Assembly: GCA_031082225.1 (NCBI GenBank)
Contig: JAVHLG010000022.1
Location: forward strand, 1 to 56,080
DNA length: 56,080 bases
Direction of reading: 5' to 3'
Source: Desulfovibrionaceae bacterium
Lineage (GTDB): Bacteria; Desulfobacterota; Desulfovibrionia; Desulfovibrionales; Desulfovibrionaceae
The position numbers and the translations under genes are program-made. Below the pieces are notes generated by a model. That model made no database searches and was not told the origin of the DNA. It worked only from the letters and a program-made list of their open reading frames with translations. This document shows, in pieces, positions 2,987 through 52,559 of this stretch. How positions within the stretch are numbered: position 1 is the stretch's first letter; each line of letters begins with the position of its first letter.

Positions 2987-2990
2987 CGCC

Positions 2991-4745: not shown

Positions 4746-4763
4746 GCTGTCCCGGGCGAGGCC

Positions 4764-8032: not shown

Positions 8033-9113
8033 AAACAGTACGTCGCTAATTATAAGTATTCTTTTTGTATGTTTTTCTTTGGCGTCAACGACCACCAGGC
8101 GATCTTATGAAATCGATAAAGAGACTGGTGAAACGAAAGCTTTGTCTGAACATGTGGAAAATGAACTTATTAAAGAACTAAAGAAAGGGGTACCCGACAA
8201 CCTCGGGCGATGGGCTGGAGAGGTGGAGGAAACGCAGCCGACAACGGACAAGGAACCGACCTATATCGTTTCGACATGGTATGGATTATTAACTCCCGAA
8301 ATGGACGGGCCGACGTATTATTATGATAAAAACAAAAAGCTACTGTATACGGAGCATTACAATCAAGGTCGACTTGTTTGGACCACCAAGCCCAAGAATG
8401 CATTCCCGGCGACGGCTCTTCCCGGACGGGGAGAGGCTGCCGACGCCTTCACGAAAACCTTCCTCATGCTTGACAATACGCGGCCGTGGTACGTCACCAA
8501 GGTCGACAAGTTCGGGTTCACCACAAGCCAGCTCAATGCCTTCACCGCGCAGCTCGAGCCCTTGATTGCTGCGCAACATCCCAGGAACGATAAGGAATTC
8601 ACCGACGTTTTTTATGATGCCCTGGGGGATCTTTTTGAGCTCCCCGAATATGCGCTCTTCAGGGATATCTATACGTTCTTCCGCGAGGTGGGGGGCATGG
8701 AGAACGCGAAAAACTTCGAGATCCGGCTGGCGGAGATGGGGCGCTATCGCGGCCAGGGGGACTCGACGTATGCGGTGCTGACCGCATCCTATGCCGCATT
8801 CGTCCAGAAGATGGCGCAGAGGGGGGTGGACAGCGCGGCCCTGAAGAGGTTCACCGACGACCTCGACGCCCGGATGATCGCCAAGGGGCCCCTGGACATC
8901 GACGATCCGCTGTTTCCCTTCACGATGGACACCCGCATGGAGGAGGTCTTCAAGGAAATGGACCAAAGCGAGCATCAAGCCATGTTCACGGCCCTGGGCG
9001 TCATCCTCACGGACTACTACAACCAGGGCGAGCCCTTGTTGCTGGCGGCCAGGGACGCCTATTTCAAAAACGTCCCCATGGCCGTCTACATGCTGCTGCT
9101 TTTGGGGGACTGA
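8013..9113 (+). CDS. Exported protein of unknown function, tandem copy 1
   Basis: A 366-residue protein that begins with a Sec-type signal peptide (KITKN, then a hydrophobic run ending FSLAS, residues 1-25). Residues 90-125 contain GPTYYYDKNKKLLY, reminiscent of MORN/YwqK-like beta-hairpin repeats. The rest is probably alpha-helical and ends MLLLLGD. No catalytic motif is visible and I do not recognise the family. A clear GAGGAGG precedes the ATG, inside the end of the membrane protein gene. The first third is AT-rich while the last two thirds have the usual GC of the region. It is paralogous to the next gene over its whole length, most strongly at the C-terminus. Confidence 0.75.
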   Translation: MQRKITKNSTSLIISILFVCFSLASTTTRRSYEIDKETGETKALSEHVENELIKELKKGVPDNLGRWAGEVEETQPTTDKEPTYIVSTWYGLLTPEMDGPTYYYDKNKKLLYTEHYNQGRLVWTTKPKNAFPATALPGRGEAADAFTKTFLMLDNTRPWYVTKVDKFGFTTSQLNAFTAQLEPLIAAQHPRNDKEFTDVFYDALGDLFELPEYALFRDIYTFFREVGGMENAKNFEIRLAEMGRYRGQGDSTYAVLTASYAAFVQKMAQRGVDSAALKRFTDDLDARMIAKGPLDIDDPLFPFTMDTRMEEVFKEMDQSEHQAMFTALGVILTDYYNQGEPLLLAARDAYFKNVPMAVYMLLLLGD

Positions 9114-9358: not shown

Positions 9359-10462
9359 ATGCGAATGAAGATCACGAAAAACAGAGTATCTATTGTTGTT
9401 CTCTTTCTTTTTGCATGCCTCTCTCTGGCTTCAACGACGACCAAGAGCTATTACGAAATCGATAAAGAAACTGGAGAAATGAAAGTTACGTCTGAACACA
9501 ATAAAAACGAGCTTATTAAGGAACAGAAGAAAGGACATTTCGATGACACCGGGCGATGGAGTGGAGGGGTGGAGAATACGCAGCCGACAACGGACAAGGA
9601 ACCGACGTATATTGTTGAGACATGGGATGAAGGTATATTATCAAGCAGGAGGCACGGGCCGACGTATTATTATGATAAAAACAAAAAACTTCTTTATGTG
9701 GAGAACTACAATGAGGGGAGACTGAGCTGGAGCAGCAAGCCCAAGAACGCATTCCCGGCGACGGCGCTTTCCGGACGGGGAGAGGGCGCCGACGCCTTCA
9801 CGAGAACCTTCCTCATGCTTGAAAATACGCGGCCGTGGTACGTCACAAAGGTCGAGAAGTTCGGATTCACCAGGAGCGAGCTCAATACCTTCACCGCAGA
9901 ACTGGAGCCCTTGATCGCCGCGCAACACCCCAGGACCGAGAATGAATTCATCGGCGCGTTTTATGATGCCTTGGAGGATCTATTCCTGCGCAGCGAATAT
10001 GCGCTTTTCAACGATATTTTCTTCTTCTTTCGCGATGTCGAGTTCATCGAGAGCGCGAAAGCCTTTGAGATCCGTCTGGCGGAAATGGCGCGGTATCGGG
10101 GACAGGGGGCATCGACATATGCGGTGCTGACCGCATCCTATGCCGCGTTTGTCCAGAAGATGGCGCAGATGGGGGTGGACAGCGCGGCCCTGCAGAGGTT
10201 CACCGACGACCTCGACGCCCGGATGATCGCCAAGGGCCCGTTGGACATCACGGATCCGCTGTTCTTCCATACGGTGGACACCCGCATGGAAGAGGTCTTC
10301 AAGGAAATGGACCAAAGCGAGCATCAAGCCATGTTCACGGCCCTGAACGCCATCCTCATTGACTATTTCTGTCAGGGCGAGCCCTTGTTGCAGGCGGCCA
10401 AGGATGCCTATTTCAAGAACGTCCCCACGGCCGTCTACATGCTGCTGCTTTTCGGGGACTGA
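9359..10462 (+). CDS. Exported protein of unknown function, tandem copy 2
   Basis: A 367-residue paralogue of the preceding protein, with the same plan: signal peptide (about 1-28, ending CLSLAS), a GPTYYYDKNKKLLY segment, and a helical C-terminal half ending MLLLFGD. The start at 9359 is preferred over an upstream ATG at 9317 because GGGGGAGGAAGT stands right before it and because it aligns with the start of copy 1. The C-terminal 90 residues are almost identical between the copies, while the N-terminal thirds differ more. Function unknown; the signal peptide suggests the periplasm or outside. Confidence 0.75.
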   Translation: MRMKITKNRVSIVVLFLFACLSLASTTTKSYYEIDKETGEMKVTSEHNKNELIKEQKKGHFDDTGRWSGGVENTQPTTDKEPTYIVETWDEGILSSRRHGPTYYYDKNKKLLYVENYNEGRLSWSSKPKNAFPATALSGRGEGADAFTRTFLMLENTRPWYVTKVEKFGFTRSELNTFTAELEPLIAAQHPRTENEFIGAFYDALEDLFLRSEYALFNDIFFFFRDVEFIESAKAFEIRLAEMARYRGQGASTYAVLTASYAAFVQKMAQMGVDSAALQRFTDDLDARMIAKGPLDITDPLFFHTVDTRMEEVFKEMDQSEHQAMFTALNAILIDYFCQGEPLLQAAKDAYFKNVPTAVYMLLLFGD

Positions 10463-24302: not shown

Positions 24303-25376
24303 TCAGGCCAATCCCAGTTCCCGGTTGCGCCGTCTGGCGGCGAACAGCGCGGCCTTGTCGCCGCAGGCCTCGTCCCAGGCGGGTTCGTGCCAGGACAGCG
24401 GGGTGTCCCGGGCCGGGACCGCCCATACCGGGCTTGCCGCCGCGCCGCCGACGGAGACGGCCGTTTCCTTCCCGGCCTGCCTGGCCTTGGGCGAGAACGA
24501 GGCCACGAAGGCGGCGGCGTCGCGCACGACGGCCTCGTCCCAGACCGCGCCGGGCAGGCGTCTGGCCAGGGCCAGGGGGCCGGGGTGGTCGCGGACCTTG
24601 AACACCATGTCGTTTCCGGCCAGGGCCGCCTCCAGCCTGGCGTTGTCGGACTGGTTGCGGCCGATGCTCAGCCACAGGTTGCCGGACCAGTATTGGCGGC
24701 CGATGTTGGCCAGCTCGAAGTCCCCGGCCCCGGGGGCGGGGTGGTGCACGAAGACCGGATAATACCGCCGGACCGATTCCATCTCCGTGAGCATGCAGCC
24801 CCCGGCCGGAGTGGGGATCTCGGGCAGCCCCATGCGTTCGGCCAGGGCCAGTTGCTCCTTGCGGCTTCGGCCGCTCATGGCGTGCAGCCGCTCCCGATCC
24901 ACCAGGCCGCGTTGCTCCATGGGCGTCTCGGGCAGGCGCTTGGCGCACAGGGGGCGCAAGAGCAGGTTGCGGGCCGCCGAGTCGCGGCGGATGACGTGCA
25001 GGGCGTCCAGGCGCTGGGACATGGGACGTTGGCCCACCACCTCGCCCGTGGCCACGAACGCGGCCCCGTATTCCGGCAGAAGGGCCACGGCCCGGTCGAG
25101 CATGAAGATCTTGCAGTCGATGCAGGGGTTGAGAAACTTGCCCAGACCATGGGCCGGACCGTCGGCGAGCATGCGCACGTAGTCCTGGCCCACGTCCAGG
25201 GCCGAGATGTCCAGGCCGAAGGTCTCGCGCCAGTGGACCAGGCGTCCGGGCTTGCCGAAAAAGGGGCTCACGAAATGCAGGCACAGGACGGACAGGCCCT
25301 GGTCCATGAGGGTCCGCGCGGCCAGGACGCTGTCCAGGCCGCCGGAGAAAAGGGAAAGGGCGTCGTAGCGTTTCAT
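24303..25376 (-). CDS. PP-loop ATPase, ThiI/MnmA-like tRNA thiolation family
   Basis: A 357-residue cytoplasmic protein. It has the ATP-pyrophosphatase loop SGGLDS (residues 11-16), a CxxC in NPCIDCK (C85, C88) and a further Cys in TPAGGCMLTE (about residue 195). The C-terminal half looks like the NFACT-R/DUF814-type extension found with such enzymes. Proteins of this kind are annotated as tRNA sulfurtransferase-like. The ATG at 25376 is chosen because the first strand starts there; an upstream ATG adds 38 residues without family sequence. It is divergent from the first solute-binding kinase gene. Confidence 0.8.
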   Translation of the reverse strand: MKRYDALSLFSGGLDSVLAARTLMDQGLSVLCLHFVSPFFGKPGRLVHWRETFGLDISALDVGQDYVRMLADGPAHGLGKFLNPCIDCKIFMLDRAVALLPEYGAAFVATGEVVGQRPMSQRLDALHVIRRDSAARNLLLRPLCAKRLPETPMEQRGLVDRERLHAMSGRSRKEQLALAERMGLPEIPTPAGGCMLTEMESVRRYYPVFVHHPAPGAGDFELANIGRQYWSGNLWLSIGRNQSDNARLEAALAGNDMVFKVRDHPGPLALARRLPGAVWDEAVVRDAAAFVASFSPKARQAGKETAVSVGGAAASPVWAVPARDTPLSWHEPAWDEACGDKAALFAARRRNRELGLA

Positions 25377-25560
25377 ATCCGTCAAGCCTAAAGCCTGGAG
25401 GAGCGGCTGGCAAGGGGCTCCATGGCCTGGGTGTCCTTCCCTTTGCAGGGCGGTCCGGACGAACGCGCCCCCTGCGGTCAACGGCGTCACAGATCGTCAG
25501 GGAAGCCACGGCGTTGCCGCGCCCATGCACCTTGCCTGCCGCGGCAAGGGGTGCTATCCG

Positions 25561-28500
25561 ATGTTCTTGAAAAACCAGTCCGAAAACCCTTTTGTGGTGA
25601 GCACCATGCCTTCATCCCTTGCCGTCGCGGCGCTCCGGCCCGTCCTGGCTGCCCTGGCGGTCCTGGCGGCCGTTTTTTTAGGTTCGGCCCCGTCCGTCGC
25701 CAGCGGCGATCAGCCCGATCTGGGCCTGACCGACGCCGAGCGGGCCTTCATCGAGGCCCATCCCGTGGTCACCTTCAGCGACTCCATCTGGGAGCCCCTG
25801 GCCATGGTGGAAAACGGAAAATACCAGGGCATCTTCCACGACTTCTACGAGCTCGTCTCGGCCATGACCGGGCTGGCCTTCAAATTCGTGCCCCAGGGCG
25901 ACTCCCGGGATTTCGGCAAGGTGCTTTCCGCCCTGCGGGACAGGCGCATCGACCTGATCGACGGCACCGGAAAAACTCCTGCCCGGGAAAAGTACGCCCT
26001 GTTCGCGGGGCCGTATCTGCGTTTTCCCATGGCCATCGTCTCCCGGGACGACGTCCTGGCCGGGTCGCTTGTGGAGCTGCGCGGCAAGCGGGTGGCCGTG
26101 GCCAGCGGCTCCACGGCCTACGAATACGCCCGGGACAACCATCCCGAACTGGACCTCGTGGTGGTTGAGGATCCTGCGGCGGCCCTTTCCGCCGTGGCCT
26201 CGGGCCAGGCTGCGGCCATGCTCGAAAACCTGGCCGTGGTCACCTACGGCATCCGCAAGGCGGGCCTGAGCAATCTCAAGGTGTCGGGGCTTGCGGACTA
26301 CGTGTTCGACATCTACGCCCTGGTGCGAAACGACATGCCGGAGCTGGCCTCCATCCTGGACAAGGCCTTAAAGGCCATCCCGGTATGGGACAAGGCGGCC
26401 ATCATGGCCAAGTGGCTGCCCCTGTACACCTCGGGGCAGACGCCGGGACAGACGCCGGGCCGGGCGGCGGCGGGAGACGGCTCCTCGGCCGCTGCGGGAG
26501 GCGGCCCGGAGGCCGCCCCGGTCCGGGTGACCCTCAATCGCCGGGAACGCAGCTACGTGGAGGCCAAGGGGGCGCTTCGGTTCTGCGTGGACCCGGACTG
26601 GCCGCCTGTGGAGCGGGTGGACGAGGCCGGGCGGTACGAGGGCATGGCCGCCGACGTGCTGGCCCTGTTGTCCGAGCGTCTGGGGACGCCGGTGCGGATG
26701 CATCCCACCGCCTCCTGGGCCCAGACCCTGGAGGCGGCCCAGGCGGGCCAGTGCGACTTCATCGTGGCCGCCGTGGATACGCCCGAGCGTCGCCCCTTCC
26801 TCGAGTTCACCAGCCCCTACCTGCGCCTGCCCCTGGTGGTGGCCACCCGGGCCGACCATGCCTTCGTGGACGGCCCCAAGTCCTTGATGAACGACCGGGT
26901 GGGCGTGGTCCGGGGGCATGCCACGGCGGACATCCTGCGCGGCAGGTATCCGGCCCTGGACGTGGTGGATGTGGCCAGCGATTTCGAAGGGATGGCCCAG
27001 GTGGCGTCCGGGGAGATCGACGCCTTCGTGGACGTGCTGCCTGCCGTGGCCTACCGCATGGGCAAGGAGCGGCTGACGGGCCTGAAGATCGCGGGCCGCC
27101 TGGAGGATCACCTGGATCTGTCCGTGGCCGTGCCGCGCGGCAAGGCCGAGGTGTTCTCCATCTTTCAAAAAGGCGTCAGCAGCCTGAGCGCCGGGGAACT
27201 GGACGCCATCTTCAAGAAATGGGTGGCGGTCACGTTCGAGCACGGGTTCGACTACACCCTGGTGTGGCGGGTGGCGGCGGGCGCGGCCCTGGTCATCCTG
27301 GTCATCGTGTGGTGGAACCGCAAGCTGACCCGCTTAAACCGCGCCATCCGCCGGGCCCATGAGGATCTGGCCGCGCTTCTGGACAACTCCGGCCAGGGCT
27401 TTTTGTCGTTTCAGGCCGACGGCGTGGTGCAGCCGGGGTTCAGCCGCGAATGCCGGGACATGTTCGGCCGCGACCCGGCAGGCCTGCCCATCTGGTCCCT
27501 GTTGTTCCCGGGCGACGCGCGCGCCGCCGGGGACTTCGCCAAAAACCTGGGCCGCATCCTGGCCGAGAACGATGATTTTCGCCGCTCGCTCTACCTGTCG
27601 CTGATGCCCGCGTCCGTGCAGCCGGGGGGACGCGTCCTGGAGGTGGAATACCGGGAGATCGGCCGGGACCGGCTCATGCTGGTCCTGACCGACGTCACGG
27701 ACGCCCGCCGTCTGGAGAGCGAGGTGGAGATGGAGCGCGCCCGACTGGCCAACGTGGTGGCCGTGGCCCGCGACCCCCGGGAGTTTTTCCAGGTGGCGGA
27801 CGCCTTCCGGGCTTTTGCCGCCGCGTGCCGGTCGAAGGCCCCGGGCGGTGAGTCCCCGGCCGAGGCCCTGCGCCGTCTGTACCGCCAGGTGCATACCTTC
27901 AAGGGACTTTTCCTCATGTTCGGATGCCGCCGGGCAGCGGCGGCGCTGCACGACCTGGAGTCGCGGCTGTCGGCTCTGGAGGCCGGGGGCGGGGTCACGT
28001 CCGGTGATCTGGCCGGGGTCGTGCACCTGGAACCGGCCGTGGAGGAACTGGCCGGGGACATGGAGGTGCTGCGCCAGACCCTGGGGGACGAGTTTTTCAA
28101 CCGGCGCGGCGCGGTGTGCATCGGCGAGGACATGGCCCGGGAGCTCCGGCGTCTGGCCGAGGAACTGGCCGCCGCCCTTCCCGAGCCGCAGGATGCCCGG
28201 GTGCGCATGCTCATTGAGCGGGCCAGGACGCTTTGCCATGTGGACATGCGCGGGCTTCTGGCCGTATCCTTGGGCACGGCGGGCCAACTGGCCGAGCGCC
28301 TGGGCAAGGTGGTGCATGCGCCGCCGGTGTCCGGGGAGGCTGTGCCCGTGGACCCGGACCGCTTCGGGCCGCTGTGTCGGCGCGTGGTGCACCTGGTGCG
28401 CAACGCCGTGGCCCACGGCGTCGAGTCCCCCGAGGACCGCGTCCTGGCGGGCAAGCCCGAGGCCGGGACCGTGGCCGTGTCCGTGGCCCGGGACGGGGAC

Positions 28501-28827
28501 TGGCTGTGCCTGCAGGTGTCCGACGACGGGGCCGGGATCGACCCCGCGGCCGTGCGGGGCCGCGCCGCCGCTCTGGGGCTGGCCGACGCGCAGACCCTGG
28601 CGGCCATGGACGAGGGTCGCGTGTTGCGCCTGATCCTGGCCCAGGGGCTCAGCACCGCCACGAGCGCCGACGAGGCCTCGGGACGCGGCGTGGGCCTGTC
28701 CGCCGTTTTGGAGGAAGTGGAGCGGCTTGGCGGCGAATTGCGCATCGAAAGCCGTCCGGGGCTGGGCACGACGTTTACCGTGCGCGTTCCCCTGTGTGCA
28801 ACCGAACAGGCCAAGGAGCAACCATGA
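25561..28827 (+). CDS. Membrane CheA-like kinase with two periplasmic solute-binding domains
   Basis: A protein of 1088 residues. A signal sequence (about 1-47) is followed by two SBP_bac_3-type domains (about 53-290 and 322-565), which in transporters bind amino acids and similar small molecules. After one membrane helix (566-586) come a PAS-like region (about 600-713), an Hpt domain with His778 in RQVHTFKGLF, and a CheA-type ATPase (VRNAVAHGVE, DDGAGID, GRGVGLS). I see no CheW-like P5 domain, no P2 domain and no receiver. The phosphate would therefore go to a separate receiver, most simply the CheY two genes on. AAGGGG stands before the ATG at 25561; an ATG at 25606 is a possible alternative. 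It overlaps cheX by four bases. Confidence 0.88.
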   Translation: MFLKNQSENPFVVSTMPSSLAVAALRPVLAALAVLAAVFLGSAPSVASGDQPDLGLTDAERAFIEAHPVVTFSDSIWEPLAMVENGKYQGIFHDFYELVSAMTGLAFKFVPQGDSRDFGKVLSALRDRRIDLIDGTGKTPAREKYALFAGPYLRFPMAIVSRDDVLAGSLVELRGKRVAVASGSTAYEYARDNHPELDLVVVEDPAAALSAVASGQAAAMLENLAVVTYGIRKAGLSNLKVSGLADYVFDIYALVRNDMPELASILDKALKAIPVWDKAAIMAKWLPLYTSGQTPGQTPGRAAAGDGSSAAAGGGPEAAPVRVTLNRRERSYVEAKGALRFCVDPDWPPVERVDEAGRYEGMAADVLALLSERLGTPVRMHPTASWAQTLEAAQAGQCDFIVAAVDTPERRPFLEFTSPYLRLPLVVATRADHAFVDGPKSLMNDRVGVVRGHATADILRGRYPALDVVDVASDFEGMAQVASGEIDAFVDVLPAVAYRMGKERLTGLKIAGRLEDHLDLSVAVPRGKAEVFSIFQKGVSSLSAGELDAIFKKWVAVTFEHGFDYTLVWRVAAGAALVILVIVWWNRKLTRLNRAIRRAHEDLAALLDNSGQGFLSFQADGVVQPGFSRECRDMFGRDPAGLPIWSLLFPGDARAAGDFAKNLGRILAENDDFRRSLYLSLMPASVQPGGRVLEVEYREIGRDRLMLVLTDVTDARRLESEVEMERARLANVVAVARDPREFFQVADAFRAFAAACRSKAPGGESPAEALRRLYRQVHTFKGLFLMFGCRRAAAALHDLESRLSALEAGGGVTSGDLAGVVHLEPAVEELAGDMEVLRQTLGDEFFNRRGAVCIGEDMARELRRLAEELAAALPEPQDARVRMLIERARTLCHVDMRGLLAVSLGTAGQLAERLGKVVHAPPVSGEAVPVDPDRFGPLCRRVVHLVRNAVAHGVESPEDRVLAGKPEAGTVAVSVARDGDWLCLQVSDDGAGIDPAAVRGRAAALGLADAQTLAAMDEGRVLRLILAQGLSTATSADEASGRGVGLSAVLEEVERLGGELRIESRPGLGTTFTVRVPLCATEQAKEQP

Positions 28828-29348
28828 GCGCTTCCGGGGTGGACATCAGCCGGTTTTTGCAGGCCCTGTCCGAGCGTAGCGTCAGTTTTTTGCGTGACGA
28901 ACTGGAGATCGCGGTCACGGTCCAGACGCATCATCTCGACGATGTGCAAAAGCTCGATCTCAAGCACCTGACCGCGATCATGAGCGCCACGGACAACATG
29001 AAGCTCTACCTGGCCTACAGCTTCGACGAGGCGCTCATCGTCAAGGCCTTCGAGGCCTATTGCAAGGATCTGGACATTGCCCCGGACGAGCGCGATACCT
29101 ATATGGAAGAAACGGCCGGGGATATCATCAACATCATCGTGGGCAACGCCCTGGCCGACCTGTCGGCCCAGGGCCGGGTCATCGGCCTGTCGCCGCCCAT
29201 CGTCATCACCGAGGCCAAGAGCGTCATGCGCCACCGGGGGGCCAAATTCGCCACAGCCTGCCTCGTCACGCCGTACGGGGGACTGAACATACATCTCATC
29301 GGTCCGGGGGAGCTTTTCGACGACACCCTGGAATACCTGGAGGCATAA
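28824..29348 (+). CDS. cheX: CheX-family chemotaxis phosphatase
   Basis: A 174-residue cytoplasmic protein of the CheC/CheX/FliY type, which speeds loss of phosphate from CheY. The helix EETAGDIINIIVGNALADL carries the E-x-x-x-N style active-site pattern of the family, and the second half (GLSPPIVITEA, then ATACLVTPYGGLNIHLI) is typical CheX. The start overlaps the kinase stop in ATGA, with AAGGAG eight bases upstream. The stop is three bases before the cheY start, so kinase, phosphatase and receiver are translated as a unit. Confidence 0.88.
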   Translation: MSASGVDISRFLQALSERSVSFLRDELEIAVTVQTHHLDDVQKLDLKHLTAIMSATDNMKLYLAYSFDEALIVKAFEAYCKDLDIAPDERDTYMEETAGDIINIIVGNALADLSAQGRVIGLSPPIVITEAKSVMRHRGAKFATACLVTPYGGLNIHLIGPGELFDDTLEYLEA

Positions 29349-29351
29349 GCC

Positions 29352-29729
29352 ATGCGCCCCCTGAACATCATGGTCGTGGACGACTCCAACCTGACCATCA
29401 AAAAAATGGTCAAGATGATCGAGGATCTGGGGCACAAGGTGGTGCACGTGGCCTCAAACGGCCGCCAGGCCGCCGAGGACTATCCGAACGTGCGCCCCGA
29501 TCTGGTGACCATGGACATCACCATGCCGGACATGGACGGCATCGAGGCCACCAGGCGGATCATGGCCGTGGACGACAAGGCGGTCATCGTCATGGTCACC
29601 TCCCACGGCCAGGAGCAGATGGTCATGGACGCCATTGAGGCCGGGGCCAAGGGATACGTCCTAAAGCCCGTGAAGATGGAGAAGCTGGCGGAACACCTTG
29701 AGGCCGTGGCCGGGAAATACATCCCATGA
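29352..29729 (+). CDS. cheY: CheY-like single-domain response regulator
   Basis: A 125-residue stand-alone receiver. It has the acidic pair in MVVDDSN, the phosphorylated Asp in TMDITMPDMDG, the conserved Thr in MVTSHG and the Lys in VLKPVKM. With no output domain, it must act through binding partners such as the flagellar motor or one of the neighbouring enzymes. GGAGG precedes the ATG. It is flanked without gap by cheX and the PAS kinase gene (ATGA overlap). Confidence 0.95.
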   Translation: MRPLNIMVVDDSNLTIKKMVKMIEDLGHKVVHVASNGRQAAEDYPNVRPDLVTMDITMPDMDGIEATRRIMAVDDKAVIVMVTSHGQEQMVMDAIEAGAKGYVLKPVKMEKLAEHLEAVAGKYIP

Positions 29730-30907
29730 GCGGGAACATGCTGGAAAGCAGCCTCCTGGAGACGCATTTCGACGTCATCCCCTTTGGGATCTATGTGGTG
29801 GACGTGGCCACCCTGGACGTGGTCTTCGTCAACCGCCACTTCCGGGACCGCCTGGGCGATCTGGCCGGGCGCAAATGCCACCAGGCCCTCTACGAATCCC
29901 CCCAGCCCTGCCTGTTCTGCAAGATCAGGAACCTCGTGGGCCGCGACGGACTGCCCAACGGCAAGACCTACATCTTCGAGCACTTCAACGACAAGGACGA
30001 CCGCTGGTACCAGCTCCAGGAAAAGTCCATGAGCTGGCCCGACGGCCGGGTGGTCAAGTATTCCATCGCCGTGGACATCACGGAGCTTAAGGAGGTGCAG
30101 AACCGGCTGGCCGAGGCCCATGCCGAACTGGCCTTGAAAAACCGCGATCTGTCGCGGCAAAACGAGCTTTTGCAGGAAAACGTGCGGCTGCGCGAGCATG
30201 TGGACCGCATCGCCCGCCACGACCTCAAGACCCCGCTCAACGCCCTCATCGGCATCCCGCCGCTTCTGTCCGACTACGGGCTCAACGAAGAGGGCGTGAA
30301 GCTGGCGCGCATGATGGAAGAGGCCGGGGTCACCATGCTGAACATGATCAACCGCACCTTCGACCTCTACCGCCTGGAGACGGGAACCTACGTCCTTATG
30401 CCCACGGAGGTGAACCTGGCGGCCGTGGCCCGCAAGGCCGCCCAGGATGCCTCCTCCGACGTTTTTTTTCCGGACCGGCCGGTGCGGGTGGTTTTCGAGG
30501 GCCGTCCGGCGGCCGACGGGGACGAACTGATGATCCAGGGCGAGGAGCTTTTGTGTTACAGCATCCTCTCCAACCTGGTGAAAAACGCCGTGGAGGCCTC
30601 GCCCCAGGGAAACGAGATCACGGTGAGCCTTAGCCGCGAGGCCGGGGAGGCCGTGGTGGCCGTGGCCAACGTGGGCGAGGTGCCGGCAGGCATCCGGGAC
30701 CGTTTTTTTCAGAAATACGTCACGTCGGGCAAGCGCGACGGCACGGGACTCGGGGCCTATTCGGCCTGGCTGGCGGTCCGGGCCCACGGCGGCCGGGCGA
30801 CGCTCGACTCCTCGCGGCCCGGGCACACCACGGTCACGGTGCGTTTTCCCTTGTCCGCCCCGGCCTCGGTGGCCGCGTCCGGGGCAGGGGGTGATCCGCC
30901 GCCATGA
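29726..30907 (+). CDS. PAS sensor histidine kinase, cytoplasmic
   Basis: A 393-residue soluble kinase. The PAS domain (about 5-130) has a three-cysteine motif C-x10-C-x2-C (KCHQALYESPQPCLFC), which could hold a metal or a redox switch. A coiled stretch leads to HisKA (RIARHDLKTPLNAL), then the ATPase with NLVKNAVEASP and GTGLGAYSAWLA. There is no membrane segment. The PAS domain is paralogous to that of the next gene, so the two proteins probably sense the same thing. It overlaps cheY and the diguanylate cyclase by four bases each. Confidence 0.92.
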   Translation: MSGNMLESSLLETHFDVIPFGIYVVDVATLDVVFVNRHFRDRLGDLAGRKCHQALYESPQPCLFCKIRNLVGRDGLPNGKTYIFEHFNDKDDRWYQLQEKSMSWPDGRVVKYSIAVDITELKEVQNRLAEAHAELALKNRDLSRQNELLQENVRLREHVDRIARHDLKTPLNALIGIPPLLSDYGLNEEGVKLARMMEEAGVTMLNMINRTFDLYRLETGTYVLMPTEVNLAAVARKAAQDASSDVFFPDRPVRVVFEGRPAADGDELMIQGEELLCYSILSNLVKNAVEASPQGNEITVSLSREAGEAVVAVANVGEVPAGIRDRFFQKYVTSGKRDGTGLGAYSAWLAVRAHGGRATLDSSRPGHTTVTVRFPLSAPASVAASGAGGDPPP

Positions 30908-31815
30908 TCGAAAGCAGCCTTTTCGAATCCCATTTCGATCTCATTCCCTTTGGCATCTATGCCGTGGACGTGGCCACCTACGAGATCATTTTCAGCAACC
31001 GGCATTTCCGCGAGCTTTTCGGCGATCATGTGGGCAAGCCCTGCTACAAGACCCTCTACGACCTGGACAGGCCCTGCTCCTTCTGCCGCATCCGCGACCT
31101 CGTCACCCGCGACGGGATGCCCAACGGCAAGACCCTGGTGTTCGAGCATTTCAACGACGCCGCCGACGGCTGGTTCCAGCTCCAGGAGCGGGCCATGAGC
31201 TGGCCAGACGGCCGGGTGGTCAAATATTCCATCGCCGTGGACATCTCCGAACTCAAGGAGACCCAGAACCGGCTGGCCGAGGCCCATGCCCAACTGGCCC
31301 TCAAGAACCGGGAATTGGACCGCCTGTCCTTGACCGACCCCCTGACCGGGCTGCCCAACCGGCTGGCCCTGGACCGTGTTCTGGAGGATGAGGCCGCGCG
31401 CGGGCAACGGCATGGCCGGACGTTTTCGGTCATCATCGGCGACATCGACCACTTCAAGCGCATAAACGACGTCCACGGCCACGCCGTGGGGGACGCGGCC
31501 CTGCGGGAGGCGGCGGAGACGCTGGCCGCATCCGTGCGGGGCACGGACACGGCGGGACGGTTCGGCGGGGAGGAATTTCTGGTGGTGTGTCCGGAGACGG
31601 ACGCGGCCGGGGCGGAGATCCTGGCCGAGAATCTGCGGGCCAGGGTGGAGGAGCGGACCTACGCCAAGGGCGAACGCCTGACCATGAGTTTCGGGGTGGC
31701 GGAATCGCGACCCGGCGAGTCGCCCTCGCGTCTGGTGGCCCGGGCCGACGCGGCCCTGTACCGGGCCAAGGCCCTGGGGCGCAACCGGGTCTGCCGGGCG
31801 GAGACGGCCGACTGA
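30904..31815 (+). CDS. PAS-GGDEF diguanylate cyclase
   Basis: A 303-residue soluble enzyme that should make cyclic di-GMP from GTP. The PAS domain (about 1-125) has the same three-cysteine motif as the upstream kinase (CYKTLYDLDRPCSFC). The GGDEF domain starts at SLTDPLTGLPNRLALD and has the active site FGGEEFLVV. An RxxD inhibition site (RGTD) lies five residues before GGEEF, so product feedback is likely. It starts four bases inside the end of the kinase gene. No receiver is fused, so any control by the nearby CheY would be through contact. Confidence 0.95.
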   Translation: MIESSLFESHFDLIPFGIYAVDVATYEIIFSNRHFRELFGDHVGKPCYKTLYDLDRPCSFCRIRDLVTRDGMPNGKTLVFEHFNDAADGWFQLQERAMSWPDGRVVKYSIAVDISELKETQNRLAEAHAQLALKNRELDRLSLTDPLTGLPNRLALDRVLEDEAARGQRHGRTFSVIIGDIDHFKRINDVHGHAVGDAALREAAETLAASVRGTDTAGRFGGEEFLVVCPETDAAGAEILAENLRARVEERTYAKGERLTMSFGVAESRPGESPSRLVARADAALYRAKALGRNRVCRAETAD

Positions 31816-31920
31816 GAGGATCTGCCATGTCCGGTGCGGGCGGTTTTGCCCGGGGCATGTCCCGCAGAAAACAACAGCCTTTTTCGGCCGTGTCGACCAT
31901 GGCAACCGGCGGTCACGCTC

Positions 31921-34900
31921 ATGAAAACACGTTTGATTCTGTTGTGCGCCCTCTGTCTGGCCCTGTGGACCGGGACGGCCGCCGCCCAGAAGCTCGACCT
32001 GACCCCGGAAGAACAGGCATTCATTGCGGCCCACCCGGTCATCACCTGGTCGGACGCCCACAGGCCGCCCCTGTCCATCGTGGAGAAGGGACGCTACGAC
32101 GGCATCCTCCATGACTATTACCGGCTGGTGGCCGGACTCGCCGGGCTGACCTTCCGCTTCACGCCCATCGGCGACGGCCGGGACATCCAGCCCGTGTTCG
32201 ATGCCCTGGAGAAAAAGGACATCGACATGGCCGGGGGCGCGGGCATAATCCCGGGCCAGGCCGCCTACGCCCTGTTCTCCGGGCCCCTGTTTCATGTCCC
32301 CATGGGCCTCGCCGCCCTGGAGGGCAACCCGGTGAGGAGTCTGGCGGAGCTTTCGGGGCAAAACGTCGCGGTGGTCAGGAATTCCCTGGCGGCGGAGTTC
32401 GCCCGGGACGGCCATCCGGGCTTGGAGCTGGTCTACGCCGACACGCCCCGCCAGGCCGTGGACATGGTGGCCAGGGGCCAGGCGGCGGCCATGCTCGGCG
32501 ATATGGCCGGGCTGGCCCGGATCATCCGCGAAATGGGCCGCAGCGACATCCGCGTCTTGAACCTCCCCGAGCACAGCTTCGAGATCTATGCCCTGATCCG
32601 CGAGGATTGGCCCCTTTTGGCCTCCATCCTGGACAAGGCCCGGGCCGCCATGCCGCCCGAGGCCAAACATGCCATGGAAGACGACTGGCTGCGCCCCGAC
32701 GTCGCCGAAACCGGCGACGCGCGCCTAAATCTCACGGCCGAGGAGAGGCGCTACGTCAGGGACAATCCCGTTTTTACCGCCTCCAACGAATCCAACTGGC
32801 CGCCGTTCAACTTCAACGTCAACGGATTGCCCCAGGGCTATTCCGTGGACTACATGAACATGCTGGCCAGGATGGCCGGGCTCAAGGTCAAGTACGTGAT
32901 CGGGCCGGAGTGGGACGAATTCGAGCGCATGCTGCAGGACGGAACCCTGGACGTGCTCATGAACATGGCCTCGACGCCGGCACGCGAGGCCTATACGGAT
33001 TTTACGCCCCCCTACGCCACCCTGGTGCACGGCATCGTCTTCCGGGACGGCAAGGCCCCCCCGCCGAACCTGGAGAGCCTGTCCGGGCGCAAGGTGGCCG
33101 TGTCCAAGGGGTTTTTCACGGAAAAGGTGCTCGCGGCCGCCTATCCGGACATCAAGCTCCTGGCCCTGCCGGACGCCTTGAACTGCCTGCAGGCCGTGGC
33201 CACGGGCGAGGCCGATGCGGCCATAGACAGCCTCCCGGTGCAGAACTACCTGATCCGCAAGCACTTCCTGCTCAATCTGCAGACCAGGGCCCTGGTGGAC
33301 AACAGGCACTTCCCCACGGTCAACATCCGCTTCGGGGTGGGCAAAAACAAGCCCGTCCTGGCCAGCATCCTGTCCAAGGCCATGGCCATGGTCGGCGAGC
33401 GGCAGATGTCCGAGCTGCGGCAAAAGTGGCTTGCCGCCGACCGGATGGAGAAGGAATACATCCCCCTGACCCCGTCGGAGCAGGAGATGCTCTCCCGGTT
33501 GGGCGTGGTGCGCATGTGCGTGCATCCCGACTGGATGCCGTTTGGCCGCATCGACGGGCAGGGAACCTTTGAGGGCATGACCGCCGACTACGTCCGCCTG
33601 ATGGCCGAACGCATCGGCGTGGACCTCAGGCTGGTGCCCACGAAAACATGGGAACAGAGCGTGGCCGGCCTGGCCGAGGGGGCCTGCGACATCATTCCGG
33701 CCATCCCCCCCACGGACGAACGCCGACAGGTCATGTCGTTCACCCGTCCCTACCTGACCTTTCCTGTGGTCGCGGCCACGCTGACGGACACCATGTTCGT
33801 GCCCGACATGGCCTCCCTGGCCGGAAAGCGCATCGGCGCGGTGGCCGGGCAGGCCTGGACCGGGGAGATCCTGCGCGACTATCCCGAGGTGGAGGTGGTC
33901 AGGGCGCCAAGCGTGGAGGACGGGCTGCGGATGCTGCAAAGCGGTGAGATCTTCGCCTTTGTGGACACCCTGGCCGCCATCAGCTACGCCATCGGACAAG
34001 GCCATTTCGCCGACATCAAGATCGCGGGCAGGCTGGAGGGCGAACTGTCCCTGGCCGTGGGCGTCAGCCAGCAAAACCCCGATCTGGCCCAGGTCTTCGA
34101 CATGGCCGTGGCCTCGCTGACGGAAAACGAGCGTCGCGACATCTTTTCCCGCTGGATATCCATCACCTTCGAACACGGGTTCGACTACGACCTGTTCTGG
34201 AAGATCCTGGCCGGGCTGGCCGTGGCCGTGGCGGCCATATTCTACTGGAACCGGAAGCTTGTGCGCCTGAACCGGGCCGTGACCCTGGCCAACGCCGACC
34301 TGGGCCGGGCCCATGCCAAGATCTCCACCCTGCTCGACAACTCCGGCCAGGGTTTCCTCTCCTTTGCCGCCGACGGCCTGGTGGAGCAGGAACTGTCCAG
34401 GGAATGCGACCGGCTTTTCGGCAAACCGGCCGCCGGTTCGCCCATCCCGGCCCTCCTGTACCCCGGCGACGCCCGGGCCGGGGAGGTCTTCGGCCAAAAC
34501 GTCCGGCGCATCCTGGCCCAGGATGACGCCTTCAGGCGCGACCTGCTCCTGTCGCTCATGCCCCGGCGGTTCGTCCTGGGCGACAGGCAGGTGGATGCGG
34601 AATACAGGCTCCTGGAAGGCGGGCGGATCATGCTCGTGCTCACGGACGTGACCGACAAGTGCGCCCTGGAGGCCGAGGTGGAACGGGAGCGCCAGCGTCT
34701 GGCCATGATCGTGGCCGCGGTGCGCGACAGGGACGACTTCATGAGCGTTTATGCCGACTACGAACGGTTCGTCCGGACCAGGGGTCGCGGCGGGCCCCCT
34801 CGGGGCGCGGACGCCCCAGACGCCCCGGACGGCCCAGGCGGCCCGGACGATGGGGACGGCGGGGACGGCGGGGACGGCGGCTTTGATCTGCCGGGCCTCT

Positions 34901-35838
34901 ACCGCCAGGTGCACACCTTCAAGGGGCTTTTGCTGCAACTGGATTTCATCCATTCCCCACAGGCCCTGCATGGGCTGGAGACCGCCCTGGCCGCGTGGCA
35001 GGCCGCCGGGGAGCAGCGGGCGGACCGGAAGCGGCTTGCGGACGCCTGGAGGGAGTGCGGATGCGAAACGGCCCTGGACAACGACCTGGGAATCATCCGG
35101 GCGGCTCTGGGGGACGCGTTCTTCGAACAGGCCCGCCATGTCCCGGTGTCTTTGGAGATGCTCGAACGCCTGGAGGGGCTGGCCGTCCGCCTGGGGGCGC
35201 GGGCCGGGGAACTCGGCCTCGATGCGGCGGATTGCGGCCTCTTGCAGGAGGTGCGCCGCCTGCGTGAGCGGGATCTGCGCGACATGCTCGGGGCGTATCC
35301 CCAGGCGGTCCGCAAGCTGGCCGAACGCATGGGCAAGGTCGTGCAGCCCTTTGCAGTGGAAGGCGATGTCGTCCGGGTATCGCCGCAGACCTATGCCCCC
35401 TTTGTCTCCTCGCTGGTGCACGTCTTTCGCAACGCCGTGGTCCACGGCATCGAGGAGCCGGATTACCGGCTGGACGCGGGCAAGCCCGAGGCCGGACGCC
35501 TGGCCTGCCGCGTGACGGATCTGGGCGAGCGGGTGCTGGTCGTGGTGGAGGACGACGGCCGGGGGATCGGGGTCCAGGCCCTGCGGGACAAGGCCAGGGA
35601 GATGGGCATGGAGCCCACCGGGGATGCGCACAAGGATCTGGACCTTGTCTTTGAACGCGGCCTGACCACGCAAAAAACCTCCGATTCCCTCTCCGGCCGG
35701 GGGGTCGGGCTGTCCGCCGTCAGGGAACAGCTTGCCCGCCTCGGGGGGACGGCCCAGGTCACCTCGGTTCCGGGCCGGGGGACGACATTCGCCTTCACCC
35801 TGCCCAGGAAGGTTGTTCCTGAGGAAACAGCGGCGTAG
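31921..35838 (+). CDS. Membrane CheA-like kinase with three periplasmic solute-binding domains
   Basis: A protein of 1305 residues with the same plan as the kinase at 25561, but with one more sensor. The signal peptide spans 1-22 (ending GTAAAQ), then three SBP_bac_3-type domains (about 25-265, 270-517 and 517-755), one membrane helix (757-777), a PAS-like region (about 790-900), a Gly/Asp/Pro-rich linker (about 956-987), an Hpt domain with His998 in RQVHTFKGLL, and the ATPase (FRNAVVHGIE, DDGRGIG, GRGVGLS). No CheW-like, P2 or receiver domain is seen. The start is the ATG at 31921, since it gives a clean signal peptide; a GTG 29 codons upstream does not. It lies 105 bases after the cyclase gene. 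Confidence 0.88.
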   Translation: MKTRLILLCALCLALWTGTAAAQKLDLTPEEQAFIAAHPVITWSDAHRPPLSIVEKGRYDGILHDYYRLVAGLAGLTFRFTPIGDGRDIQPVFDALEKKDIDMAGGAGIIPGQAAYALFSGPLFHVPMGLAALEGNPVRSLAELSGQNVAVVRNSLAAEFARDGHPGLELVYADTPRQAVDMVARGQAAAMLGDMAGLARIIREMGRSDIRVLNLPEHSFEIYALIREDWPLLASILDKARAAMPPEAKHAMEDDWLRPDVAETGDARLNLTAEERRYVRDNPVFTASNESNWPPFNFNVNGLPQGYSVDYMNMLARMAGLKVKYVIGPEWDEFERMLQDGTLDVLMNMASTPAREAYTDFTPPYATLVHGIVFRDGKAPPPNLESLSGRKVAVSKGFFTEKVLAAAYPDIKLLALPDALNCLQAVATGEADAAIDSLPVQNYLIRKHFLLNLQTRALVDNRHFPTVNIRFGVGKNKPVLASILSKAMAMVGERQMSELRQKWLAADRMEKEYIPLTPSEQEMLSRLGVVRMCVHPDWMPFGRIDGQGTFEGMTADYVRLMAERIGVDLRLVPTKTWEQSVAGLAEGACDIIPAIPPTDERRQVMSFTRPYLTFPVVAATLTDTMFVPDMASLAGKRIGAVAGQAWTGEILRDYPEVEVVRAPSVEDGLRMLQSGEIFAFVDTLAAISYAIGQGHFADIKIAGRLEGELSLAVGVSQQNPDLAQVFDMAVASLTENERRDIFSRWISITFEHGFDYDLFWKILAGLAVAVAAIFYWNRKLVRLNRAVTLANADLGRAHAKISTLLDNSGQGFLSFAADGLVEQELSRECDRLFGKPAAGSPIPALLYPGDARAGEVFGQNVRRILAQDDAFRRDLLLSLMPRRFVLGDRQVDAEYRLLEGGRIMLVLTDVTDKCALEAEVERERQRLAMIVAAVRDRDDFMSVYADYERFVRTRGRGGPPRGADAPDAPDGPGGPDDGDGGDGGDGGFDLPGLYRQVHTFKGLLLQLDFIHSPQALHGLETALAAWQAAGEQRADRKRLADAWRECGCETALDNDLGIIRAALGDAFFEQARHVPVSLEMLERLEGLAVRLGARAGELGLDAADCGLLQEVRRLRERDLRDMLGAYPQAVRKLAERMGKVVQPFAVEGDVVRVSPQTYAPFVSSLVHVFRNAVVHGIEEPDYRLDAGKPEAGRLACRVTDLGERVLVVVEDDGRGIGVQALRDKAREMGMEPTGDAHKDLDLVFERGLTTQKTSDSLSGRGVGLSAVREQLARLGGTAQVTSVPGRGTTFAFTLPRKVVPEETAA

Positions 35839-36001
35839 GACCGGTCTGGGGAAGGCAGGCGCACGGGAGGTCGCGAGGGCCTGAGGACTTCGAATGCGCC
35901 GCAACGGCTGCATCATGAAATGATATGCGTTCGCCTCCAAAAGGCTCACACATGTTTAGCGTATCCTGTAGGCCAGGGTACTTCTTTTTCTGCATGCTCC
36001 G

Positions 36002-37195
36002 TCACCCGTCAAGCCTGGACATCCCCCACCTCGGGAAATGTCGGCGTACCTCGCGGCTTCCCACGATCCTGGAGAAAAGCTTATAGTTACCCGTCTCCCG
36101 GCGGACCCTCCCAGCCACGATGGCCGGATCGATTTCAAGAACGGCGGCGGTTTGCAACACAAAATCCATCTGACCCCGCCGCGACGGCGGGGTGTCATCC
36201 CACAGGCTTCCCGGGATCAGCATTTCCGAGGCCATGGCGTTGGCCTGCTCCTCAATGTCGTCCATGCTGCGAACGTCCAGGTCGTCCACCAGAAATCCGC
36301 CAGGAGCGACGTGCCCCAGGGCCAGATGGGCCAGTTCATGGAGCAAGGTGAACCAGAAATTGTCCAGGCGGTCATGGCGTAGCGACAGCCCGGCCACAGC
36401 CCCGCCATCCGGCGCGAAAAGAGCCGCGCCGTCAAGATACGTCCCAGGGAAATGCCGCAGCACCACGAGACGGATGCCAAATCCGGCGAGGTATTCCGCT
36501 GCCAGGGCCGGACCATCCGGCTTCGCGCTGAGCCTGGTCAGCCCCCGGAAAAACGTCGCATCGAGCCGCTGCTTCTCGAAGCGGGCCGCCATGGGCAACG
36601 AGGCGGCGACGGTACGGACGCCGCCGACCCAGACCAGAATGCCTCCCGGGTCGCCGCGCATGCCGAGACGGGTGGAGCCACGGGTGCAAAATGCCGGAAC
36701 GGCCTGGGCGATCCCGCAGTTTTCAAGCCATTGCCGAATTTCATCAGGCAACTCCTCCGGTCGGCAGTCGCGACGCAGCCAACCCCGGACAATCATCTCC
36801 CGGGCGACGCTATCTGAAATTCTGCTGGACTCCCGCGTCTGAGACATGTCCCCCACCAGTGTGTCCAATGGGATGCCCAGGCCGACATGCAGGCGACGGA
36901 TCATATCCAACGTCAGCGGCCGTTTTCCGGCCAGCACCTCGGAAATCTTGCTTTTCCCCCCGATAAACGGTTCCAGGTCGCGTCTGGAGAGCCCATACAC
37001 CTCCATGGCATATTGGATTGCGGACACGGGAGTGGGCGTTGGAATGGGATAGCGTTCATCCTCGTATAACCCGACAAGCGTGACCCAGTATTCCAAACGT
37101 TCCGAATCTCGTTCCTCGATTGGTTTATCCATCAAGTCATCTATGACGGCAAGAGCCTTCTCGTAATCTGCCTGGGTCTTGATGAGTCTTTCCAT
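36002..37195 (-). CDS. HigA-like antitoxin fused to an ImmA/IrrE metallopeptidase domain
   Basis: A 396-residue protein. The N-terminal part (about 1-110) resembles HigA antitoxins, including a helix-turn-helix (YGLSRRDLEPFIGGKSKISE). The C-terminal half holds an ImmA/IrrE (M78) peptidase motif, HELAHLALGH (His286, Glu287, His290). The antitoxin part would neutralise HigB and repress the operon; the peptidase could cleave a repressor or the protein itself, as in ImmA systems. The ATG at 37195 has GGAGGTG upstream. It follows higB by 38 bases. GC content looks lower than in its neighbours, which fits a transferred module. Confidence 0.85.
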   Translation of the reverse strand: MERLIKTQADYEKALAVIDDLMDKPIEERDSERLEYWVTLVGLYEDERYPIPTPTPVSAIQYAMEVYGLSRRDLEPFIGGKSKISEVLAGKRPLTLDMIRRLHVGLGIPLDTLVGDMSQTRESSRISDSVAREMIVRGWLRRDCRPEELPDEIRQWLENCGIAQAVPAFCTRGSTRLGMRGDPGGILVWVGGVRTVAASLPMAARFEKQRLDATFFRGLTRLSAKPDGPALAAEYLAGFGIRLVVLRHFPGTYLDGAALFAPDGGAVAGLSLRHDRLDNFWFTLLHELAHLALGHVAPGGFLVDDLDVRSMDDIEEQANAMASEMLIPGSLWDDTPPSRRGQMDFVLQTAAVLEIDPAIVAGRVRRETGNYKLFSRIVGSREVRRHFPRWGMSRLDG

Positions 37196-37233
37196 GGAGC
37201 ACCTCCCTGTCTTTTTCCATGAGGTGTCGTAGT

Positions 37234-37527
37234 TCAAATGGTCGTTATGTCTTTTATCCTGTCGTATTCCGCATGGGTTCCGACAAAACGAACGAATGCG
37301 ATTTGATCAGAGAAATCCATTTTAACGACAAGCCTGAACAGTCCCACATCGAAAACGAACCGATTTCCGCCGACATAGTCGACTGAACGGGAAAAACCTT
37401 GTTTGAGCGCCGCGAAACTGTCCCAGTTTCTTGAGACCACGCGGGCATACCAGTTCGCCAAGGGTGGCTGAGCGTCAGGGTGCAGCCGCCAGAAATCCAC
37501 CAGTGCGGCCCGTTTCACGACCCGCAT
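37234..37527 (-). CDS. higB: HigB-type mRNA interferase toxin
   Basis: A 97-residue protein of the HigB family, which cleaves mRNA on the ribosome. It begins MRVVKRAALVDFWRLHPDA and ends IAFVRFVGTHAEYDRI, both typical of the family. The ATG at 37527 matches known HigB N-termini. An ATG at 37548 exists, but the predicted promoter would start transcription right there and leave no leader. It is followed by the higA-like gene after 38 bases. Toxin first, antitoxin second is the usual HigBA order. Confidence 0.9.
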   Translation of the reverse strand: MRVVKRAALVDFWRLHPDAQPPLANWYARVVSRNWDSFAALKQGFSRSVDYVGGNRFVFDVGLFRLVVKMDFSDQIAFVRFVGTHAEYDRIKDITTI

Positions 37528-37554
37528 TTTCTTTTCCCGACCGCTCATGATTCT

Positions 37555-52198: not shown

Positions 52199-52540
52199 AT
52201 GGAAGGTTTCGAGGCTCGGCATGAGGGTGGACGCGTGATCGTGGTCCTTGGCGGCGAGATCGTCATGGACATGATTCAGGAATACAAGGTGCGCACGGAA
52301 CGCCTCCTGTCCGCCGACGGCTGCCGGGAGGTGGTGGCGGATCTTTCCGGCGTGACCTTCATGGACAGTTCCGGAATCGGGTTTCTCATCGGGCTGCGCC
52401 GCCGGGCCGAGTCGTCGGGGCGGCGCTTTCGGCTGCAAAACCCCAGTCCGCAGATAAAAAAGCTTTTGGATATGCTGCGCTTAAGCGATTTTTTCGCCAT
52501 GGGGCAAAACCGGGAAGACGGCAGCGACCGGTCGGCATGA
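52199..52540 (+). CDS. STAS-domain anti-sigma factor antagonist
   Basis: A 113-residue protein of the SpoIIAA/RsbV type. The motif FMDSSGIGFLIGL carries the serine that a partner kinase would phosphorylate. In such modules the phosphatase reactivates the antagonist, which then binds an anti-sigma factor or another target. Its stop lies 19 bases before the PP2C-type phosphatase gene, its natural partner. AAGGGG precedes the ATG. No anti-sigma kinase gene is visible nearby. Confidence 0.92.
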   Translation: MEGFEARHEGGRVIVVLGGEIVMDMIQEYKVRTERLLSADGCREVVADLSGVTFMDSSGIGFLIGLRRRAESSGRRFRLQNPSPQIKKLLDMLRLSDFFAMGQNREDGSDRSA

Positions 52541-52559
52541 CATCCCTTCGGACCCCCAC

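Follow-up and report, generated by a model that had tools for sequence, protein, structure and literature searches.

The locus described here raises the question whether a CheA-type histidine kinase can be driven by a sensor carried in the same protein. It lies on a 56,080-nucleotide stretch of DNA from a Desulfovibrionaceae bacterium (GenBank assembly GCA_031082225.1, contig JAVHLG010000022.1), termed the window, which makes up the entire contig C65 of a 4.08-Mb genome in 150 contigs. Six genes at 25561–35838, all on the forward strand, as are the features of this run given below, encode receptor kinase A, CheX, CheY, a PAS-containing kinase (H), a PAS-GGDEF protein (G) and a second receptor kinase (B). 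The frames overlap by 4 bp at A/CheX, CheY/H and H/G, CheX and CheY are separated by 3 bp, and a gap of 105 bp lies between G and B, confirming the description in an earlier note on this DNA of six genes with overlaps or tiny gaps through most of the run. Judged from domains, catalytic residues and gene neighbourhoods, we consider it likely that the run encodes a compact phosphorelay of chemosensory type, uniting sensor and CheA in one membrane protein that is independent of chemoreceptors and CheW and works with CheY and CheX.

Receptor kinase A (25561–28827; 1088 amino acids) comprises a signal anchor, two venus-flytrap domains (VFT1, VFT2), a transmembrane helix, a PAS-like segment, an Hpt domain and a CheA-type P3 region and P4 domain. 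The tandem flytraps (SBP_bac_3; 25711–27225, approximate ends) were assigned from Pfam and profile relatives and are followed by a membrane helix predicted from hydropathy (residues 566–584; 27256–27312). The PAS-like segment (27367–27696, approximate end) begins with LLDNSGQGFLS, a family signature; it derives from a family alignment and a low-confidence model. The P1-like Hpt domain at 27856–28026, identified by a sub-threshold Pfam match and by alignment, carries an HTFKG motif with His778 encoded by codon 27892–27894. The CheA-type ATPase (P4; 28381–28794), located by Pfam, profile and Foldseek comparison, lies near the carboxy-terminus with no P5 after it. Receptor kinase B (31921–35838; 1305 amino acids) shows the same arrangement with three flytraps, a membrane helix, a PAS-like segment, an Hpt domain (His998), a P3 region and a P4 domain (35410–35811, Pfam). 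Pfam recognised two SBP_bac_3 domains, HATPase_c and, at 22.6 bits against a cut-off of 24.6, Hpt in A, and three SBP_bac_3 domains plus HATPase_c in B. The Hpt domain of B was not called, yet it aligned with that of A around HTFKG, placing His998 at the position of His778. Pfam found no CheW, receiver or HisKA domain in A or B, and no CheW domain in 12 further family members including one on an Ideonella plasmid (locus L070); both window proteins stop after P4. Pfam and profile alignment thus bore out the two receptor kinases of the earlier note, with flytrap-type heads, Hpt and CheA-type ATPase and devoid of CheW-like or receiver domains.

A search of the genome with the core of A recovered B and one more kinase of this kind, on contig C95, together with seven CheA sequences, of which two run off contig ends. 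All seven CheAs contain a CheW domain according to Pfam, six an Hpt domain (the seventh lacking its amino-terminus) and six a P3 domain, one of these below the cut-off. In a profile–profile comparison with hhalign, 16 receptor-kinase cores matched these seven CheAs with a probability of 100 and an E-value of 2.5e-48, collinear over Hpt, P3 region and P4 and stopping before P5. The ten top matches of the kinase core in a PDB profile search were all CheA chains, and the best Foldseek matches were CheA P3P4 and P4; the underlying AlphaFold model is modest (mean predicted local distance difference test score, pLDDT, of 62, from a two-row alignment) and was used only alongside the profile evidence. 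The histidine, lysine and glycine of the Hpt motif (HT[FL]KG) and the N- and G-box residues of the ATPase are invariant in 16/16 aligned cores. Rows of this alignment were chosen by possession of most of the LLDN[AS]GQGFLS motif, which opens the PAS-like part in all 16. The family alignment places this PAS-like linker, which the earlier note did not contain, between membrane and Hpt in both A and B; it appears in the alignment and a weak model, Pfam giving no PAS domain in either protein. Likewise, the P3 region was aligned by hhalign, with two helices predicted in the low-confidence model, and was not called by Pfam. By its sequence, the kinase core is of CheA type in P1, P3 region and P4 and lacks P5, P3 being the weak point of this assignment.

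The two genes following A encode a CheX of 174 amino acids (28824–29348), identified by Pfam and profile comparison, and a stand-alone CheY of 125 amino acids (29352–29729), identified by Pfam and alignment. CheX scored 42.3 bits in Pfam (cut-off 27) and its profile matched solved CheX chains in the PDB with a best E-value of 2.6e-5. The phosphatase signature, DxxN in the window protein (Asp100, in GDIIN), is kept as [DE]xxN in 16/16 aligned sequences. CheY matched Response_reg at 102 bits and carries Asp10, Asp11, Asp55, Thr83 and Lys105; these residues, and the TSHGQ stretch starting at Thr83, are invariant in 14/14 aligned sequences. At L068 the two proteins are fused into a CheX::CheY polypeptide of 301 amino acids (7409–8311), encoded between the receptor-CheA kinase and a PAS-GGDEF protein.

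We assessed how widely this combination occurs, denoting compared loci and genomes by L and G numbers. Kinase-core matches at E ≤ 1e-60 were present in 23 of 348 genomes of the class, in 8 of 59 genera, and in a sample of the phylum in 10 of 395 genomes and 6 of 245 genera; the majority of genomes thus have no such kinase. Kinase, CheX and CheY lie within 6 kb of each other at 23 loci including the window and at three short loci, together 26 genomes from seven families (f1, f2, f3, f11, f69, f71 and f82), 18 of them in f1. Because the three genes recur together in 26 genomes, their association exceeds chance; the earlier note had staked its proposal on conservation of the neighbourhood, and conserved it proved to be. 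Counts over non-window loci refer to the 22 loci with CheX among L050–L069 and L088–L094; the kinase B rows (window, L050) were counted with their own A unit, and two partial kinase matches (G301:C125, G372:C140) and a P4-only match (L041) were left out. With eight loci of a sister clade described below, kinase loci with CheY plus CheX or a CheX-like protein amount to 34 of 37, L091 being among the loci with CheY.

The five-gene order A–CheX–CheY–H–G is kept in two other genomes of the same genus and in eleven of genus g6, where A of L056 is cut by the contig end. In 12 of these 13 loci (L059 left out), the CheX–CheY, CheY–H and H–G junctions measure at most 3 bp, except for one of 52 bp and one of 26 bp; the A–CheX junction was not included. 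Parts of the unit are inverted to the opposite strand in G092 and G203. Kinase B was found in two genomes only, G000 and G065, and not in G045; it is a lineage-specific paralogue of A, extra to the unit. Two kinases bracketing the other genes, as the earlier note had it, are therefore a property of the window and not of the family.

Within the family the sensor part varies. The flytraps of A and B are related in sequence to the flytraps of BvgS, EvgS and 7ejg, a solved EAL-domain protein, and flytrap inputs occur in the window and its relatives with CheX and CheY retained. The kinase input is dCache/CHASE4-like plus PAS at L065, dCache_2-HAMP at L091 and a receiver domain, next to a hybrid kinase, at L093, CheX and CheY being retained in each case; at L066 and L068 it is an unrecognised segment flanked by two predicted membrane helices. 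At L088, L089 and L090 the segment between two predicted membrane helices carries two CXXCH haem motifs, and the kinase gene lies immediately 3' of [NiFe] hydrogenase genes. The working unit therefore appears to consist of kinase, CheX and CheY, the sensor being the variable part. An amino-acid-like ligand, favoured by the earlier note, is possible for the flytraps and fits heads of this type only. The Arg/Asp pair that we take to be the amino-acid ligand residues of this flytrap family is complete in three of five aligned domains (VFT2 of A, VFT2 and VFT3 of B) and incomplete in VFT1 of both kinases, and other members of the kinase family have Cache, CHASE4, receiver or haem/hydrogenase inputs.

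Several of these loci show further features. At the hydrogenase-linked loci (L088:8795–13632, L089:8470–13319, L090:899–6095) the order is hydrogenase, kinase, then CheX and CheY. The [NiFe] large subunit ends in DPC.ACSVH with no carboxy-terminal extension, and the small subunit starts with a Tat-like SRREFLK or NRRKFLQ; the arrangement is a possible hydrogen-sensing pathway. At L093 (9016–13934) a hybrid kinase with HisKA-HATPase, two receiver stretches and Hpt adjoins the receiver-(PAS-like)-Hpt-P4 kinase, which is accompanied by CheX, CheY and PAS-GGDEF; the pair is a possible two-tier relay into the module.

The C95 kinase (L013) groups with those of L067, L069, L094 and L114–L117 in a sister clade with CheY at 8/8 loci. 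Upstream of the kinase, 8/8 loci encode a protein with a CheX-like carboxy-terminal part. The four such proteins seen whole measure 298–358 amino acids, contain an ExxN stretch and scored 17.5–24.7 bits for Pfam CheX, below the cut-off of 27; at the four short loci the CheX-like part was detected by tblastn. A reading of the sister clade as lacking CheX was thus ruled out by the divergent, sub-threshold CheX part of the longer neighbour. Four members included in both a kinase tree (31 sequences) and a CheY tree (28 sequences) group together in each, the trees having been built by a quick method with long branches flagged. In the genome of the window itself, L013:7207–10564 contains this third CheW-less kinase with a CheY and a 298-amino-acid protein with a divergent CheX end. 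A CBS-like amino-terminus is suggested by a sub-threshold match in the relative at L067.

H (29726–30907; 393 amino acids) is a PAS-HisKA-HATPase kinase and G (30904–31815; 303 amino acids) a PAS-GGDEF diguanylate cyclase with a GGEEF motif, both identified by Pfam and alignment. All nine full-length rows aligned for H retain the HisKA histidine. In G the GGEEF motif, the metal-binding aspartate and three PAS cysteines are kept in 12/12 rows, the I-site RxxD not in every row; the nearest NCBIfam model, SiaD, matched below its cut-off. The PAS domains of H and G share a C..PC..C pattern of three conserved cysteines (29726–31323), which was absent from the earlier note, and in the window are 70% identical over 140 columns. 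This pattern suggests a cofactor or redox site in the three-cysteine PAS. Among the 22 non-window loci with CheX, G occurs in 19 and H in 15, and G occurs without H in view at L066, L068, L091 and L093. L088 and L089 lack G despite being open on that side, L090 ends inside CheY, and the neighbourhoods of the sister-clade kinases at L013, L069 and L094 showed no G. Since GGDEF is absent beside the open loci L088 and L089, cyclic diguanosine monophosphate (c-di-GMP) signalling, named a parallel output in the earlier note, is a common companion of the unit and stands outside its invariant core.

The surroundings of the unit were searched for chemotaxis genes by tblastn (E 1e-4) with six proteins of the same genome: CheW, CheR, two receptor signalling ends and two P5 ends. 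Among 23 neighbourhoods (the window and the 22 CheX loci), 20 gave no match, a search that distant homologues could escape. In the remaining three, the match lies more than 20 kb away in the window, a receptor lies about 8 kb away at L064, and CheR and P5 matches lie 3 kb and more beyond CheY at L089, apparently within a distinct che cluster. A separate che cluster is also present in the window at 3–7022 on the reverse strand, encoding CheW, CheR-TPR (Pfam) and two receptors; its gene cut by the contig end starts, by eye, like Hpt/CheA. The earlier proposal of a pathway that does without chemoreceptors and CheW agrees with the missing P5, the built-in receptor and these neighbourhoods. As to output, FliM was found in 26/26 kinase genomes searched and in 186/199 genomes of the class. 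These 26 differ from the neighbourhood set in including G029, G201 and G571 and omitting G022, G718 and G720. The FliM test of a flagellar output by gene content was discarded as non-discriminating.

From these data we infer the following course of signalling. When a ligand occupies the periplasmic flytraps of A (and those of B, in genomes that have it), the signal would travel via the membrane helix and the PAS-like and helical linker to Hpt and the CheA-type core; there P4 would phosphorylate the Hpt histidine, probably across a dimer. The phosphoryl group would pass from Hpt to Asp55 of the co-encoded CheY, and CheX would hydrolyse phosphorylated CheY, setting the response time. H and G would probably read one cytoplasmic signal of redox or metal type, H adding to or subtracting from phosphorylated CheY and G making c-di-GMP as a second branch. 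Phosphorylated CheY would act on a flagellar or other protein target encoded elsewhere. Control via CheW and receptor arrays is unlikely because P5 is missing. The placement of P1 between the sensor helix and P3/P4 suggests that the sensor alters the presentation of P1 to P4, in contrast to arrays, in which CheW and receptors hold P5.

We compared this arrangement with known systems. Like the CheAs of canonical chemosensory systems (F classes, Tfp, ACF), A and B have CheY and CheX as partners, and they align collinearly with the CheAs of their own genome over Hpt, the P3 region and P4; unlike them, they lack CheW/P5 and carry their own sensor and membrane helix, and neither CheW nor a receptor was found beside the unit in most loci. 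A survey of 13,673 CheAs reports a CheW domain in 100% and P1, P3, P4 and P5 in all; it describes CheA as lacking a sensor domain and states that the dimerisation domain "always occurs" alongside those for kinase and CheW (PMC10782961). The set was drawn via a database's own CheA identification, so that receptor-fused kinases probably did not enter it. As A and B depart from two defining CheA features, P5 and the absence of an own sensor, we treat the system as a variant of CheA–CheY–CheX rather than an ordinary CheA. A receptor-fused CheA architecture was not found in the portions considered of PMC2829493, PMC9239204, PMC2577667, PMC4709007, PMC1183210 and PMC5706477. Among the matches listed from open-licence literature, no title or abstract opening described a module of receptor-CheA with CheX and CheY or its link to hydrogenase.

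The sensor half resembles BvgS and EvgS in its tandem flytraps, which are related in sequence, and its membrane helix, and perhaps in its PAS-like linker. The transmitters differ, that of A and B consisting of Hpt and CheA-type P4 and that of BvgS/EvgS reportedly being a HisKA-HATPase-receiver-Hpt chain. The CheX matches known CheX proteins, whose solved structures presumably come from Borrelia, Thermotoga and others, in its above-cut-off Pfam score, its profile matches to CheX chains and its [DE]xxN signature; it differs in being encoded with a receptor-fused kinase, in its fusion to CheY at L068 and in the long CheX-like form of the sister clade. G resembles PAS-GGDEF diguanylate cyclases in its complete GGDEF active site and in having SiaD as nearest model, and differs in a three-cysteine PAS common to the adjacent HisKA kinase and in its linkage to CheX/CheY. 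Beyond the phylum the comparison covered plasmids, where none among 562 matching records and one among 449 covered at least 80% of the query. The Ideonella plasmid kinase (L070; 4HB_MCP-HAMP-Hpt-ATPase) likewise joins a receptor-type sensor to Hpt and a CheA-like ATPase without CheW (Pfam), with 28% identity over 91% of the core; it shows that a similar receptor-Hpt-ATPase exists outside the phylum. Unlike A and B, it is betaproteobacterial, adjoins a fragment of a receptor signalling domain and has no CheY or GGDEF among 13 annotated features. At L070:5191–8850 the kinase is followed by a short protein with a methyl-accepting-chemotaxis-type signalling domain and a 182-amino-acid protein with a CheX/CheC-like ExxN stretch and no Pfam match.

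Taken further, the kinase–CheX–CheY trio may represent a third His-Asp layout between two-component systems and chemosensory arrays, with a sensor-swappable receptor-CheA, P1 controlled directly by the sensor and a dedicated CheX. Its inputs would range from flytrap ligands to a receiver and, in three genomes, to a sensor segment bearing two haem motifs next to a NiFe hydrogenase that has a Tat-like signal; the latter would amount to a hydrogen-to-CheY pathway. For this broader claim we see the chances as even.

A number of observations weigh against a CheW-independent relay through CheY and CheX. The P3 domain, called by Pfam in six of the seven own-genome CheAs, is uncalled in A and B and rests on profile alignment and the model of pLDDT 62; the Hpt of A lies below the Pfam cut-off and that of B is uncalled; and the structure model of CheX was unusable, with a pLDDT of 46. 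Among the 37 kinase loci, L092 has CheY with no CheX found, L063 has neither in view, its contig starting just upstream, and L113 is cut by the contig. One of the 26 genomes, G022, shows only the kinase end in view, and the CheY frame of G182 is shortened. With at least seven ordinary CheA sequences in the genome, CheY could have other feeders, and since FliM is near-universal in the class, a flagellar output gains no support from its presence.

The weak or missing Pfam scores of Hpt and P3 would also be expected if A and B were non-catalytic relics of CheA, deprived of P5 and taken over by receptors. The invariance of the Hpt histidine and the ATPase motifs in all 16 cores, the long open frames and the conserved gene run make this highly improbable. 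Alternatively, A and B may be ordinary sensor kinases for another response regulator, with CheX and CheY served by H or by array CheAs. The same gene run does encode a complete HisKA kinase, H, and phosphotransfer cannot be read from sequence alone. Yet H was not seen at seven of 22 loci that keep kinase, CheX and CheY (L066, L068, L088–L091 and L093, with L068 and L090 truncated by the ends of their contigs), the sister clade is common to the kinase and CheY trees, and the Hpt is CheA-like, a domain type that hands phosphoryl groups to receivers; we therefore regard this explanation as unlikely.

The two remaining alternatives concern the output. The system may be a side input to ordinary chemotaxis, A and B phosphorylating one more flagellar CheY that competes with those fed by array CheAs, with G and H as mere companions. 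A bare receiver with the usual residues, FliM in every kinase genome searched and the ordinary CheAs of the genome would suit such a role. FliM says little given its frequency in the class, the presence of GGDEF in the window and at 19 of the 22 other loci was taken as more than passive company, and flagellar-type promoter matches are not in excess in the window, leaving the side input possible and rather doubtful. Conversely, c-di-GMP may be the main output, with phosphorylated CheY, or CheX, regulating G directly via its PAS domain and the pathway existing for control of the cyclase. Such a role would account for a G gene that belongs to the unit at these same loci in several families, at four of them without H in view, and for its fully conserved GGEEF. 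It is at odds with the hydrogenase-linked loci L088 and L089 and the sister-clade loci L013, L069 and L094, beside which no G was seen, and with the conserved cysteines of the G PAS, which suggest a cofactor of its own; we can give cyclase control only a tentative place. The preferred reading remains the sensor-driven CheA-type relay through CheY and CheX.

The window contained no Rfam match at gathering scores, and sigma-28-like and sigma-54-like sites in it did not exceed those in shuffled sequences. Three sigma-70-like sites were found in 25000–36100, none ahead of the A start. Elsewhere, two genes on the forward strand (8466–9113 and 9815–10462) encode 215-amino-acid proteins with closely similar amino-termini. 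Downstream of B, on the opposite strand at 36002–37548, an ImmA/IrrE-type peptidase gene lies 3' of a 104-amino-acid gene that is HigB-like by eye, likely a toxin–antitoxin-type pair. At 52235–54158 a STAS protein adjoins a receiver-PAS-SpoIIE phosphatase, likely a partner-switching pair.

Chemosensory signalling is described as dependent on receptors, CheW and a CheA bearing a CheW-like domain. Were an attached sensor able to drive a CheA core, the CheW–receptor array would not be essential to CheA chemistry. The family would then offer natural minimal systems of sensor, kinase, CheY and phosphatase that could be rebuilt in vitro, and the relation of array-based chemotaxis to two-component kinases would become testable. 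For these bacteria, it would link ligands in the periplasm, and in relatives perhaps hydrogen, to CheY and c-di-GMP.

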